The notes below the pieces were generated by a model, which did not search any database, was not told where the DNA came from, and was given only the letters and a program-made list of their open reading frames with translations. From the NCBI GenBank assembly GCA_021163045.1, contig JAGGXM010000065.1, forward strand, positions 1 to 48,285: a stretch of DNA of 48,285 bases, in the 5' to 3' direction. Both the position numbers and the translations under genes were made by a program. Source of the DNA: Thermoproteota archaeon. GTDB taxonomy: Archaea > Asgardarchaeota > Njordarchaeia > Njordarchaeales > Njordarchaeaceae. Of this stretch, positions 3,264 through 47,349 are shown piece by piece (position 1 is the first letter of the stretch; the number at the start of each line of letters is the position of its first letter).

Positions 3264-3366
3264 GGGCGGGTAGTCTAGTGGTATGACGCCGCACTTAGAG
3301 CCGTTTTAGACTCTAAGGGCGAGGCTGACAACGCGGAGGACGGCGGTTCGATTCCGCCCCCGCCCA
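3264..3366 (+). tRNA. tRNA-Val(GAC), intron at 30/31
   Basis: The acceptor stem GGGCGGG (3264-3270) pairs with CCCGCCC (3359-3365), with discriminator A3366 and an encoded CCA at 3367-3369. The T-arm is GGCGG-TTCGATT-CCGCC. After removal of 3293-3323 the anticodon arm is CCGCG-CTGACAA-CGCGG with anticodon GAC at 3327-3329. The spliced tRNA is 72 nt. The intron lies between positions 30 and 31, inside the anticodon stem, not at the usual 37/38. Confidence 0.92.
3293..3323 (+). other. tRNA-Val intron (31 nt), bulge-helix-bulge
   Basis: A strict bulge-helix-bulge can be drawn. The intron-internal helix is CTTAGAG (3294-3300) with CTCTAAG (3311-3317). The central 4-bp helix is CGCC (3287-3290) with GGCG (3318-3321). 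The two 3-nt bulges, GC^A and AG^G, are both cut after the second base. This fixes the splice sites. Confidence 0.88.
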
Positions 3367-11720: not shown

Positions 11721-11818
11721 GCCCCGATGGTGTAGCCCGGTCAAGCATGCGAGCCTTTCAGCTCGCATAATACTGAGAAAGAGAGCTCGCGACGCGGGTT
11801 CAAATCCCGCTCGGGGCA
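11721..11818 (+). tRNA. tRNA-Glu(TTC), intron at 37/38
   Basis: The acceptor GCCCCGA (11721-11727) pairs with TCGGGGC (11811-11817), discriminator A11818, CCA encoded at 11819-11821. The T-arm is GCGGG-TTCAAAT-CCCGC. With 11761-11783 removed, the anticodon arm is CGAGC-CTTTCAA-GCTCG, anticodon TTC at 11757-11759. The intron is in the canonical 37/38 place. Confidence 0.93.
11761..11783 (+). other. tRNA-Glu intron (23 nt), bulge-helix-bulge
   Basis: The central helix is CTTT (11755-11758) with AAAG (11778-11781), an internal CTC/GAG helix follows, and the bulges CA^G and AG^A are both cut after their second base. The intron begins with GCTCG, a copy of the 3' anticodon-stem strand. Confidence 0.87.
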
Positions 11819-42682: not shown

Positions 42683-43594
42683 TTATTCTAGAAAACGCTT
42701 TATAAACTCCCATTGATTATCAATATATTTCTTTATTAAATTGATTTTCTCTGGCGAGATATCCCTAAATCTTCCTTGTAACATAAGATAATCTTCTAAA
42801 GGCTTCCTGCGAGCTGGGTCAATGTATGGCCTTGATGGACCTGAGATCGAGAAATTAAGTCCATGATCTGTTTGCTCAGCTTCCCATAGAATCCAGTATC
42901 CTGTTTCAACAGCCAACTTGGCAACAGTTACTGTTTTTGAATCATCGAATCGCCATCCTGGCGGACACGGCGCGAAAATATGTAAAAATCGAAAACCATG
43001 GATATTGCGTGCCTTTTTAACTTTCTGATATAAATCTAAAGGATAGCCACTCGATGCAGTTGCTACATAAGGGACACCATGTAATAGCATGAGGTATGGC
43101 ATAGGCTTCTTCTCTTCACTTTTACCAGCGTATGTTGTAGTAGTAATTGCACCAGGAGGTGTGCTCCCTGAGCGTTGAATTCCAGTATTCATATACGCTT
43201 CATTATCATATACTGCTACTATAATATCCTCATTTCTCTCTGCAGCTCCGCTTACTGTTGCGAACCCAATATCAATAAGTCCACCGTCTCCGCCCCAGAC
43301 TAGGACATTAACATCATCATAACCTTTTGCCACTAATGCATGCTTAAGTCCTGATGCTACAGCGGCTGCAGATGCAAAAGCGGTGTTAAATATATGAACT
43401 TTTATAGACGAGTATGGAAATATCGCTTGATAAACACTGGAGCAAGAAGCAGGAATAACTATAATAGTATCCTTACCTAAGGCCTTAAGTACATATCTAA
43501 GTGCAAGTATTGATCCGCATCCAGGGCATGATGTATTTCCTGGAAGGACGAGATCCTCTCGTTCAATTAATTCATCGTATATCGTTTTGGTCAT
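42683..43594 (-). CDS. porB: 2-Oxoacid:ferredoxin oxidoreductase beta subunit
   Basis: Thiamine-diphosphate subunit of 303 residues: NTSCPGCGSILALRYVLK, the ThDP motif WGGDGGLIDIGF...VYDNEAYMNTG, and cysteines for a 4Fe-4S cluster. GSTPPGAITTT follows, as in pyruvate ferredoxin oxidoreductase. It is last in the operon porG-porD-porA-porB, the order of archaeal pyruvate oxidoreductases, which make acetyl-CoA from pyruvate and reduce ferredoxin. The substrate could also be another 2-oxoacid. Confidence 0.92.
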   Translation of the reverse strand: MTKTIYDELIEREDLVLPGNTSCPGCGSILALRYVLKALGKDTIIVIPASCSSVYQAIFPYSSIKVHIFNTAFASAAAVASGLKHALVAKGYDDVNVLVWGGDGGLIDIGFATVSGAAERNEDIIVAVYDNEAYMNTGIQRSGSTPPGAITTTTYAGKSEEKKPMPYLMLLHGVPYVATASSGYPLDLYQKVKKARNIHGFRFLHIFAPCPPGWRFDDSKTVTVAKLAVETGYWILWEAEQTDHGLNFSISGPSRPYIDPARRKPLEDYLMLQGRFRDISPEKINLIKKYIDNQWEFIKRFLE

Positions 43595-43599
43595 TTAAA

Positions 43600-44748
43600 T
43601 CACCTCAGAATCTCATTAAGAGACTTTTCTATATGTTCTGGAAGAATTTCATCTCCTCCAATGCCCATAATTTTACCGTATACCGGAGTATCTACTCTAA
43701 ATTCATGAAGTGTGGCCCGTACTTCTCCTGCTAATATACCGCCCCAACCGAAAGAGATATCTCGATCAATTACAACAATATTACTAACCTTCCTAGCTAT
43801 ATTCGCGATTTCTTCTTTTGGAAATGGTCTAAAGGCTCGAACTTTAACAACGCCAGCTCTTTTTTTGAGTTCTTTGGAAGAATCGATTGTTGCTTCCACC
43901 TGTTCAGCTACATTTCCAAGTGCGATTACTATAGTATCTACACCTTCTGTGTTATAGTAGCTTACTAGATCCCCATGCCATCTACCAAAAAATTCTTTAA
44001 ATTCGGCAGCGACCTTCTTAATAATTTTTTTAGCGTTCTTCATCGCTTTTTCAATAGATAATCGGAATTTTACATAATCTGCAGGCAGAGCAATATTTCC
44101 AAACGTAATCGGTGGTGAAACTTTAGGATTCATTACATAGTGAGGCGGATCATATGGGGGCAAAAATTCATCTACGAGCTCTTGTTTTGGGATCTCGACA
44201 GGCATTGTTGTATGACTAAGTATAAAGCCATCATGCATAACCATTGCCGGAAGTATCACCTCTTTATGTTCAGCAATCTTATATGCTTGGATTACTGAAT
44301 CTAAAACTTCCTGATTATTTGCTGCCCAGAATAGGATCCAGCCAGAATCTCTTAACATTAGAGCATCAGTATGTTCACTCCAGATATTCCATGGTGGTCC
44401 TAGAGCTCTATCAACTACTGACATCACGATAGGAGTTCTTGCACCAGCCGCCCAGCTAATCATTTCAGCCATGTACAATAAGCCTTGACTTGATGTTGCC
44501 GTATATGTACGAGCTCCTGCAGCAGAAGCGCCCATGACTGCTGCCATTGCTGAATGTTCTGATTCAACTCGTATCATATGAGCTTTTAATTCACCAGTAT
44601 CGACCCATCTTGCTAATGTTTCAACAATGGTTGTTTGTGGCGTTATAGGATATGCCGCAATTACATCAGGTCTACTTAATCTAGCGCCCCATGCTGCAGC
44701 TGCATTCCCAGTAATAACTTTAACAGTACCTTTTGACTCGGTTATCAT
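43600..44748 (-). CDS. porA: 2-Oxoacid:ferredoxin oxidoreductase alpha subunit
   Basis: The 382 residues begin with GNAAAAWGARLSRPDVIAAYPITPQTTIVE, the pyruvate-binding loop, followed by ESEHSAMAAVMGASAAGARTYTATSSQGLLYM and the domain II stretch VDTIVIALGNVAEQVE. It lies five bases from porB and one base from porD, so the genes are tightly coupled. Confidence 0.94.
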   Translation of the reverse strand: MITESKGTVKVITGNAAAAWGARLSRPDVIAAYPITPQTTIVETLARWVDTGELKAHMIRVESEHSAMAAVMGASAAGARTYTATSSQGLLYMAEMISWAAGARTPIVMSVVDRALGPPWNIWSEHTDALMLRDSGWILFWAANNQEVLDSVIQAYKIAEHKEVILPAMVMHDGFILSHTTMPVEIPKQELVDEFLPPYDPPHYVMNPKVSPPITFGNIALPADYVKFRLSIEKAMKNAKKIIKKVAAEFKEFFGRWHGDLVSYYNTEGVDTIVIALGNVAEQVEATIDSSKELKKRAGVVKVRAFRPFPKEEIANIARKVSNIVVIDRDISFGWGGILAGEVRATLHEFRVDTPVYGKIMGIGGDEILPEHIEKSLNEILR

Positions 44749-44749
44749 T

Positions 44750-45025
44750 TCAAATCCCCTCTCTTATTTTTTTAATTGCATCTTTAGGGCAGACATCTGC
44801 GCATACGAAACAGCCTTTACAATACTCGTAATCAATTTGCGGAATCTGATCTCTTTGTTTAACTATTATCGCATTTTCTGGGCAATGTATCCAGCACAGA
44901 AGGCATTTAATGCACTTATTTTCATCTATTATCGGTCTAAAAACGCGCCAAGCACCAGTTTTACCACCAGCACCGATTTTTGGGTGTGAAATGGGTAGAA
45001 TTAAATGATCTAGTTCCTGAGTCAT
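44750..45025 (-). CDS. porD: Oxidoreductase delta subunit, 2x4Fe-4S ferredoxin
   Basis: 91 residues with two 4Fe-4S motifs: CIKCLLCWIHCPENA and CKGCFVCADVCPKDA. The N-terminal GAGGKTGAWRVFRPII is typical of PorD. It passes electrons from PorAB to free ferredoxin. Confidence 0.94.
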   Translation of the reverse strand: MTQELDHLILPISHPKIGAGGKTGAWRVFRPIIDENKCIKCLLCWIHCPENAIIVKQRDQIPQIDYEYCKGCFVCADVCPKDAIKKIREGI

Positions 45026-45047
45026 TTCGCATCACCATAAAACAACA

Positions 45048-45620
45048 TTATAACTCGGTTATTTCAATATTATTATAAGCCTTTGTTGCAGCTATTGCGT
45101 TTTTTTCACCTATTTTTCCTGGCCAGTTATTTTTAATAACATATTGAATAGCGTCTATCGAAGGAAGATTTAGAATTCTTGATAGTGCTCCCAACATAGC
45201 AGTATTTATGACATGAAGTCCCGCTATTGTAAGTTCAAGCTCAACAGCAATACCTGTGGCATCCACTATTCCAATTTTTTTAACCTTTTTAGGAATAATA
45301 TTCTTTATTGAGCTCAGAGAACCACTATAATTCAAGAGAATAGAGCCACCATCTTTAAGATTCTGTAAAACCTTTGTTATCTTTAGCAATTCTAAATCGA
45401 AAAATATAGCAATATCGGGACTATTTACGAAATGATGAAATTTAATTACTTTATCTGATAATCGATTATATGCATAGACTGGTGCGCCTCTTCTTTCCGC
45501 TCCAAAAAAAACAATAGATTGAGCCCAATAATTTTCTCTATAGACCGCACTCGCAAAAAGTCTTGACGCGGTAACAGCACCTTGTCCTCCACGACCAACC
45601 CAAGTGATTTCAATCAACAA
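45048..45620 (-). CDS. porG: Oxidoreductase gamma subunit
   Basis: About 190 residues beginning IEITWVGRGGQGAVTASRLFASAV, with SIVFFGAERRGAPVYAYNRLSD and the closing NAIAATKAYNNI, typical of PorG. TTG at 45620 behind GGTGAT is the chosen start. It heads the por operon; the permuted 5S rRNA gene lies 88 bases upstream on the same strand. Confidence 0.92.
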   Translation of the reverse strand: MLIEITWVGRGGQGAVTASRLFASAVYRENYWAQSIVFFGAERRGAPVYAYNRLSDKVIKFHHFVNSPDIAIFFDLELLKITKVLQNLKDGGSILLNYSGSLSSIKNIIPKKVKKIGIVDATGIAVELELTIAGLHVINTAMLGALSRILNLPSIDAIQYVIKNNWPGKIGEKNAIAATKAYNNIEITEL

Positions 45621-45707
45621 GGTAATCACCATGATGATTTCTTTAAGAAGATCAAGAAATTATAAATTAAAACTCTATGAAAATACTATAAGTAGAACTC
45701 AAGTAGA

Positions 45708-45860
45708 TGCCCCTGAGTTTCCGAGTTCGGAATGGGTTCGGGCGTAGCCTCCTCCCTATGGCCGCCTCCCGAAGGAGGCAGCAGAGTCCTTTCCCGTAGA
45801 GTCGCCCACTACGGTACTTGGAACTCCGTGGAGGAGCTTAGCTTCCGGCCCAGGGGCACT
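45708..45860 (-). rRNA. 5S rRNA, circularly permuted gene
   Basis: On the minus strand the 3' half of 5S rRNA comes first (AAGCTAAG...CTCCTCC, helix V GAGTTCC/GGACTC, helix IV CCGTAG/CTACGG around TGGGCGACT, 45844-45774). Then comes a TTCG loop (45773-45770), then the 5' half (GGAGGCGGCCATAG, helix II GGAGGAG, loop C ACCCATTCCGAAC, helix III CCGA/TCGG, 45769-45721). Put back in normal order the halves give 120 nt, the standard length. Helix I (GGAGGCGGC with GCTGCCTCC, 9 bp, one G-U) is capped by CUUCGG instead of carrying the ends. The new ends lie between helices II and III, held by an added 8-bp helix: TGCCCCTG (45858-45851) with CAGGGGCA (45715-45708). CGGAA is present at both borders. 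Confidence 0.92.
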
Positions 45861-45883
45861 AGTCATTCGATTAGTAGTAAAAG

Positions 45884-45892
45884 TATTTTAAA
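45884..45892 (-). promoter_or_regulatory. TATA box of permuted 5S rRNA gene
   Basis: TTTAAAATA preceded by a purine-rich BRE-like GAAAAG. Its centre (45888) is 27 bases upstream of 45861, so transcription would start right at the new 5' end of the permuted RNA. Confidence 0.75.
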
Positions 45893-45978
45893 CTTTTCTT
45901 TTGAGATTATATTTACCAACTAATTGTTAATGATAGCTAAATAGTGGTTTTTTCCTTATTATCTTTTAGAGATATAAG

Positions 45979-46046
45979 AAAAACTCAGACTGCCCATCGT
46001 CGCTCATTTAAAGTGATCGCTCAAGGCTGAAATCATCATCGTTTTT
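45979..46046 (-). ncRNA. C/D box sRNA with 16S rRNA guide
   Basis: Minus strand: a terminal stem AAAAAC (46046-46041) with GTTTTT (45984-45979), box C ATGATGA (46039-46033), guide TTTCAGCCTTGA, D' probably GCGA (46020-46017), C' ATGAGCG (46007-46001), a 12-base second guide, box D CTGA (45988-45985). The complement of guide 1 contains CAAGGCTGAAA, which is the conserved 16S rRNA stretch just before ACUUAAAGGAAUUG. The target of guide 2 (ACTGCCCATCGT) is not recognised. It lies 119 bases upstream of the permuted 5S rRNA. Confidence 0.78.
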
Positions 46047-46070
46047 TTACTAAAAATTTAGGTCCTTAGA

Positions 46071-46135: not shown

Positions 46136-46558
46136 ATGAGTCGATCGGATATTTCCTATAGAGAATTATTATTCGACGAGTTTGTACAATTAATTTCTTC
46201 ACTTAAAGATGAGAGAAAAGAAATAACATTAAGAGTAAGGTTAATTGGAAAAATAGCCTCTATAGAAAGGAACCTTCTAACCTTAGAGGATCCTTTTAAA
46301 GGAGAAGATCGTGGAGTACGATTTGTAGTTGTTCTAAGCTCTTCACATTATAACACTTTAAAGAATTCAAATAGCTTAGTAGGGTCTTTTGTTGATTTTT
46401 GGGGAAGTGTTAAGATATTCTCTGATGGGAACATTATAATACATGCACATATTCTTAGAATAATAGAATCTTTTAATCCAGATATTTATAAATTATTGAT
46501 AAAGTTAGAAAGAAAGTGTCTAAATATTAAAAATGGTGATTTAAAATGGAATGGTTAG
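46136..46558 (+). CDS. Small OB-fold-like protein coupled to PCNA
   Basis: The 140-residue protein has an OB-like strand series: ITLRVRLIGKIASIERNLLTLEDPF, RGVRFVVVLS, GSFVDFWGSVKIFSDGNIIIHAHILRII, with helices at both ends. I do not recognise a named family. Its last 13 bases overlap the PCNA gene, whose GGTGAT site lies within it, so translation is coupled. A replication-linked single-strand-binding role is an inference from the fold and neighbour. Confidence 0.65.
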   Translation: MSRSDISYRELLFDEFVQLISSLKDERKEITLRVRLIGKIASIERNLLTLEDPFKGEDRGVRFVVVLSSSHYNTLKNSNSLVGSFVDFWGSVKIFSDGNIIIHAHILRIIESFNPDIYKLLIKLERKCLNIKNGDLKWNG

Positions 46559-47349
46559 CAGCATATGACGATGCTAAAGTTGCAAAAGAAATTATAATTG
46601 CAATTTCAAATATTGTAGATGAGGGAAATTTTTATGCCAGAGAAGCTGGGCTTGAGTTTATGGCCATGGATGAATCGAGAGTTGCAATGGTTATATTGAA
46701 TATGCCCGCAACACTCTTTCAGAAGTACGATTTTGAACCCCCTGATGGAAAAGAGACTATTGTTATGGGCATTAATTTTTCTGAACTTAAGAAGATCATA
46801 CAAAGAGCAAAATCAAAAGATAGCGTAATATTTTCTCTTAAAAAAGAGAGAGATAGATTCTTTTTTACAGTTACTTTCTATCGGGGAACCCTAGAAGAAA
46901 GAAGTCTGCAAAGATCTTTTGCATTACCATTAATAGAGATTCCCGAGGAGAAAATTCCCATCAAAGAATTACAATATGATGTTTCTATAGAATTTGCTCC
47001 AGCATCAGCATTAGGGGAAATAATCTCCGATGCAAGCGTAATTGGAGAAGATTTAAGAATAATCACAAATGCATCAAAAAAGGAACTTAAATTTGTAGTA
47101 GAAAGCGATACCGGAGGTTTTTATGAATATCTCGCGCCTCTAGATCGCGAAGAAACTATTGTCGAATTTAATGTTAAAAATGATGCGGAATCCTTATATT
47201 CAATAGATTTTCTGAAGAAATTCATGCGTGCTTCGAGAGTTTCTGAAATGGTTCGATTAGAGTATTCTAAGAATATGCCTCTAAAGCTTACATTTATGAT
47301 CGGTGGTGGCGTCGAGTTATCTTATCTACTTGCTCCAAGGATTGTATAA
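46546..47349 (+). CDS. pcn: DNA polymerase sliding clamp PCNA
   Basis: 267 residues with the two-domain PCNA fold: the N-terminal AGLEFMAMDESRVAMVILNMPATLFQKYDF, the connector IPEEKIPIKELQYDVSIEFAPASALGEIISDA, and the C-terminal LKLTFMIGGGVELSYLLAPRIV. It is the clamp loaded by RFC (25881-28692), and RfcL carries a matching PIP peptide. No second PCNA gene is in the window. Confidence 0.96.
   Translation: MEWLAAYDDAKVAKEIIIAISNIVDEGNFYAREAGLEFMAMDESRVAMVILNMPATLFQKYDFEPPDGKETIVMGINFSELKKIIQRAKSKDSVIFSLKKERDRFFFTVTFYRGTLEERSLQRSFALPLIEIPEEKIPIKELQYDVSIEFAPASALGEIISDASVIGEDLRIITNASKKELKFVVESDTGGFYEYLAPLDREETIVEFNVKNDAESLYSIDFLKKFMRASRVSEMVRLEYSKNMPLKLTFMIGGGVELSYLLAPRIV

Follow-up and report, generated by a model that had tools for sequence, protein, structure and literature searches.

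The window, which is the whole 48,285-nucleotide stretch analysed here, is contig 180 of a metagenome-assembled genome (MAG) of 1.51 Mb in 187 contigs that is 73% complete and belongs to an Asgard archaeon of the Njordarchaeota group. Direct reading of its minus strand places a circularly permuted 5S rRNA gene at 45704-45861, in which the 3' half comes first and is followed by UUCG, the 5' half and a closing-helix strand. On this strand, a TATA-box-like element (TTTAAAAT, 45885-45892) lies about 24 nt upstream of the base of a new closing helix, whose 5' strand (UAG UGCCCCUGGG) occupies 45849-45861 and has the predicted RNA 5' end at its base. The 3' half of 5S (45774-45847) then supplies a loop B strand, the 3' strand of helix II, helices IV and V with loop E, and the 3' strand of helix I. 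A UUCG tetraloop (45770-45773, TTCG in the DNA) links the canonical 3' and 5' ends and caps helix I, which pairs 45774-45782 with 45761-45769. The 5' half (45719-45769) contributes the 5' strand of helix I, loop A, the 5' strand of helix II and helix III, after which the 3' strand of the closing helix (CUCAGGGGCA U CUA, 45704-45717) leads to the predicted RNA 3' end.

The initial annotation had described a 3' half joined to a following 5' half through TTCG on the minus strand, and every element lies where it had been placed. CGGAA is present at both borders, as had been noted, and the rejoined core measures the proposed 120 nt when one of the two copies is omitted. The annotation was also right about an extra helix closing the new ends, although not about its length of 8 bp: UGCCCCUGGG and CUCAGGGGCA form 10 bp, continued by UAG/CUA past a 1-nt bulge. 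The TATA-like element is also present; the annotation put it 27 bases before the new 5' end, and it lies about 24 nt from the stem base.

The permuted gene lies between a divergent PCNA gene upstream (46546-47349, plus strand) and a pyruvate:ferredoxin oxidoreductase operon downstream (PorC, D, A and B; 42683-45632, minus strand). Just upstream of it is a possible archaeal C/D box sRNA (45977-46048, minus strand) with C box AUGAUGA and D box CUGA, for which we found weak, sub-threshold matches to SNORD81 and snoZ157. A comparable C/D-box-like element precedes the permuted 5S of another genome, G002 (L037, about 1345-1395). Elsewhere in the window, two tRNA genes on the plus strand (3264-3366 and 11721-11818) match Rfam with insertions near the anticodon that are typical of archaeal introns.

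A search of the segment with the Rfam 5S covariance model, which had been proposed as a check, returned two disjoint partial matches (18.5 and 17.0 bits against a cut-off of 38) that lie in the wrong order, including one within the 5' half at 45719-45742. Measured by the RF00001 gathering score, the segment yields fragments only, the best at 18.5 bits, as expected for a permuted gene order. When the RNA of this locus was cut within the loop of helix I and rejoined, it gave a single full-length match to the normal-5S profile (42 versus 26 bits). The minimum free energy fold of the window RNA includes the 5S arms and the closing stem (z = -3.9), and none of 200 dinucleotide shuffles folded as strongly. 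Adjacent pairs of partial RF00001 matches recur in congeners of the window's organism and in many other families. Reading these loci revealed the permutation that the initial annotation had suggested seeking in related genomes, with the same breakpoint.

We aligned 22 permuted cores, which posed no difficulty, and built from them a covariance model, R1, that matches the window at 45719-45847 with 111 bits. Over the 35 canonical 5S pairs, 87.7% of the cells in this alignment are paired, compared to 63% in shuffles, and none of 500 shuffles reached the observed value. Double changes, affecting both sides of a pair, occur in 29 of the 35. Only the permuted order brings the two strands of helix I next to each other, and this helix is 100% paired across the 22 cores. 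Compensatory changes across many families extend to all five helices and the closing stem. The sequences have the five canonical helices and conserved loop sequences of 5S rRNA with covariation, in the arrangement of a circularly permuted 5S, with the 3' half first and a hairpin on helix I. Conservation of this arrangement across the phylum excludes chance and upholds the identification made at the single locus.

In all loci read, the breakpoint is identical, between CGGAA and the strand opening the 3' side of helix II (consensus near GAAAGYYAAGC). The junction motif is common to all families read, and the CGGAA repeat is exact mainly within the window's own order. When loci were cut at the helix I loop and rejoined at loop B, the median score against the 5S profile rose from 26 to 46 bits, with improvement in 52 of 54 loci; the rejoined matches were full-length and the uncut ones partial. 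A UNCG tetraloop caps helix I in 33 of these 54 loci. Our scripted rule recognised no simple helix I in eight further loci, and single-sequence folding gave a comparable hairpin in most of them. The closing stem differs in sequence from lineage to lineage. Its score has a median of 26, versus 14 for mismatched partners, and exceeds the 95th percentile of the control in 42 of 62 cases. In most families the stem abuts the core, while insertions separate the two in f5 and f18. In several other families, TATA elements (TTTATATT) cluster 29-32 nt upstream of the stem base, which would place the start site near that base.

To determine how widespread the permuted form is, we queried 228 Asgard species genomes with both models, taking E <= 1e-6 as a strong R1 match. 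Strong matches were found in 140 genomes from 22 family-level groups. There were 171 R1 matches in total, and the remaining 31 were weak and occurred in families that have a normal 5S. RF00001 scored above its cut-off in 63 genomes, of which 59 were left with a normal 5S of their own, all within five families (f6, f11, f12, f16 and f19). Permuted-only genomes stay below the Rfam gathering score with RF00001. No genome among the 228 has own copies of both forms, and no family is mixed. Apparent exceptions were rejected: the normal copies in G089, G140 and G162 adjoin bacterial LSU rRNA, and the normal-order copy in G064 is on an archaeal contig that looks foreign and carries a fused RNAP B'/A' gene. 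Neither form was detected at these thresholds in 29 genomes, most likely due to incompleteness or divergence. The initial annotation, which named no archaeal example, missed this breadth: most Asgard archaea appear to have the permuted gene as their standard 5S, and it is not a peculiarity of one genome.

As a control, we searched 194 genomes of another archaeal phylum, where the best R1 match reached 52 bits and the five best were ordinary 5S rRNAs (RF00001 93-103 bits). The assignment of families f20 and f28 to the permuted form is less certain, as their R1 scores of 48-50 bits are within the range of normal 5S in the control phylum. A strict permuted-order pattern searched over GTDB gave 40 matches. 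Six of these are true permuted 5S with 5S sequence on both sides, all of them Asgard, and the other 34 are without 5S features. Since this pattern covers only some permuted sequences, it limits, rather than excludes, permuted 5S outside Asgards.

Within the window's own MAG, RF00001 detected no other 5S even at E = 10, with the MAG being 73% complete. A normal 5S hidden in its missing part is unlikely given that seven single-contig genomes (G011, G052, G097, G098, G099, G150 and G151) are permuted-only; one of these, G052 (f18), has 3,326,783 bp in one contig and two permuted copies. A normal 5S elsewhere in the genome, with expression from it alone, was one of two findings named in advance as fatal to the permuted reading. 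The other, an assembly chimera, is rejected by the recurrence of the permutation in 140 separate genomes.

We propose that the window gene is the organism's ribosomal 5S in permuted form, transcribed and used as it is, and that this form probably had one early origin and reverted in about three or four lineages (probability about 0.9). The old 5' and 3' ends would be linked by a short hairpin loop on helix I, usually UNCG, and the molecule would be opened between helices III and II, in loop B. Its new ends would pair into an extra helix, variable in sequence and projecting as a third arm, and an archaeal TATA promoter would start transcription near the base of this helix. A plausible origin, as the initial annotation had suggested from the sequence, would be that a normal 5S gene was duplicated in tandem early in Asgard evolution and the outer halves were then lost. 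That the permuted RNA is conserved, covaries and shares no genome with a native normal 5S points to ribosomal function. From sequence data we infer transcription, the RNA ends, incorporation into the 50S subunit, the mechanism and the number of origins.

We also weighed other fates of the transcript. Circular rRNAs are made in archaea, and the products of permuted SRP RNA genes are functional circles (PMC10085705). If the new ends of the 5S transcript, which meet in a helix that would favour ligation, were joined in the same manner, the RNA would work as a circle. We consider this improbable. The closing stems are continuous, and inspection by eye showed no bulge-helix-bulge motif at the joined termini, which processing like that of permuted tRNAs would call for. 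Furthermore, the position of the TATA element fits a linear RNA starting at the stem base, and studies of rRNA processing in archaea are stated to have found circular 16S and 23S forms but none of 5S (PMC12918454). Permuted tRNA genes are processed by circularisation followed by reopening (PMC10085705), and a circular transcript cut at the helix I loop would likewise give a normally ordered mature 5S. This is still harder to accept: the frequent UNCG loop suggests selection for a closed hairpin rather than a cleavage site, the closing stem would need to be removed from the product, and here too a bulge-helix-bulge motif is not visible. Finally, the locus could be a 5S pseudogene or a relic of tandem duplication, with the working 5S elsewhere. 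The incompleteness of the MAG would allow for this, and CGGAA at both borders resembles a duplication scar. This explanation is nonetheless largely refuted by compensatory changes that recur in many families, both in all five canonical helices and in the closing stem, and by single-contig relatives that have no normal 5S.

To our knowledge, permuted 5S rRNA was previously known only from some mitochondria. We found no report of it in archaea in the open PMC literature; subscription papers and preprints were outside the scope of this search, and priority is uncertain. Stramenopile mitochondria have a permuted 5S rRNA (Valach et al. 2014, cited in PMC11528492 and PMC10085705). This mtPerm-5S (RF02547) resembles the Asgard form in that the gene is permuted and its product is taken to work permuted. 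The Asgard form differs in that it would belong to cellular archaeal ribosomes and, beyond all five canonical helices, has a further helix that closes it at loop B. A search of seven permuted Asgard genomes with RF02547 gave no hits, even at E = 10. The canonical archaeal 5S (RF00001) shares helices I-V, loop E and conserved sequences with the Asgard form, which matches it over the full length once cut and rejoined, and differs in the order of the halves. Permuted or circular rRNA also occurs in the archaeal ribosome in the cases of the Pyrococcus furiosus permuted 23S (PMC7758197) and circular archaeal 23S (PMC12918454). There, however, the gene is normal and RNA processing permutes the product, whereas the Asgard 5S permutation is encoded in the gene, with no bulge-helix-bulge visible by eye. 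Permuted tRNA and SRP RNA genes likewise have the 3' part ahead of the 5' part, but their transcripts are circularised and the tRNAs then reopened (PMC10085705), and we saw no sign of either step in Asgard 5S.

We investigated the history of the two forms with a tree of 16 ribosomal-protein genes around uL5, in which several rows are under half filled. A second tree omits G188 and G185, whose ribosomal proteins and 5S resemble another lineage, likely through contamination. By parsimony, the permuted or normal state needs four changes on the ribosomal-protein tree, and an AU test rejects trees in which one split separates the permuted from the normal genomes (p about 1e-202). The normal family f6 branches first, with one distant and partial outgroup and a weakly placed root. 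The simplest reading is probably one permutation after f6 with reversions in f19, f12 and f11/f16, about three or four in number. Several independent gains at one breakpoint, about seven, are less favoured because they are costlier on the tree. Such gains would concern the history only and are compatible with our main explanation. The normal 5S of the outgroup and of eukaryotes, the weakly placed root with its single distant outgroup, and the need for a second rearrangement in every reversion all speak for them. Nevertheless, all families read have the breakpoint and junction motif in common and the parsimony total is only four changes, and we regard repeated gain as unlikely.

Tandem 5S copies in some relatives are consistent with an origin by tandem duplication. 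In G102, two permuted 5S genes are in tandem 37 nt apart (L138, 479-598 and 636-755, minus strand); a tandem permuted array of this kind spans a normal-order 5S across its spacer and could be a reversion route. The single-contig genome G120 (f19) contains three equal-scoring normal 5S genes in tandem, about 374 nt apart (L164, 493-1359, minus strand), an arrangement that could give rise to a permuted gene. The normal-order 5S on contig G064:C117 (L241, 8277-8414, minus strand) carries an additional hairpin, CAGTCT-ATCG-AGACTG, at precisely the position where Asgard 5S is permuted. The contig is probably from a foreign archaeon; the hairpin suggests that an added helix can be accommodated at this position, and the arrangement may resemble an intermediate.

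Few parts of the ribosome are as conserved as its 5S rRNA, which most members of an archaeal phylum appear to use in permuted form. Asgard archaea are the closest known relatives of eukaryotes, whose own 5S has the normal order. According to the Heimdallarchaeum genome paper, existing HMMs failed to predict 5S genes (PMC8813620), and a permuted 5S would offer an answer to why they were missed in these complete genomes. The permuted order would likewise explain why annotation tools report Asgard 5S as missing, which affects MAG quality grading, as this asks for a 5S gene. In the sampled genomes, the Njord-containing clade of the window's order with f17, f18, f21, f22, f23 and f24 is uniformly permuted. 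If this clade corresponds to Heimdallarchaeia, the 5S is permuted in the lineage proposed as sister to eukaryotes and normal in eukaryotes themselves. On balance, we favour a permuted 5S that became fixed at or near the Asgard root and is used in the ribosomes of most of the phylum, those of the Heimdallarchaeia-like clade among them, in which case the eukaryotic normal 5S would be a reversion or a marker of branching. Because eukaryotic 5S is normal and this clade is permuted throughout, the 5S state is informative on Asgard and eukaryote trees, as a rare genomic character with few changes that is testable against the competing topologies.
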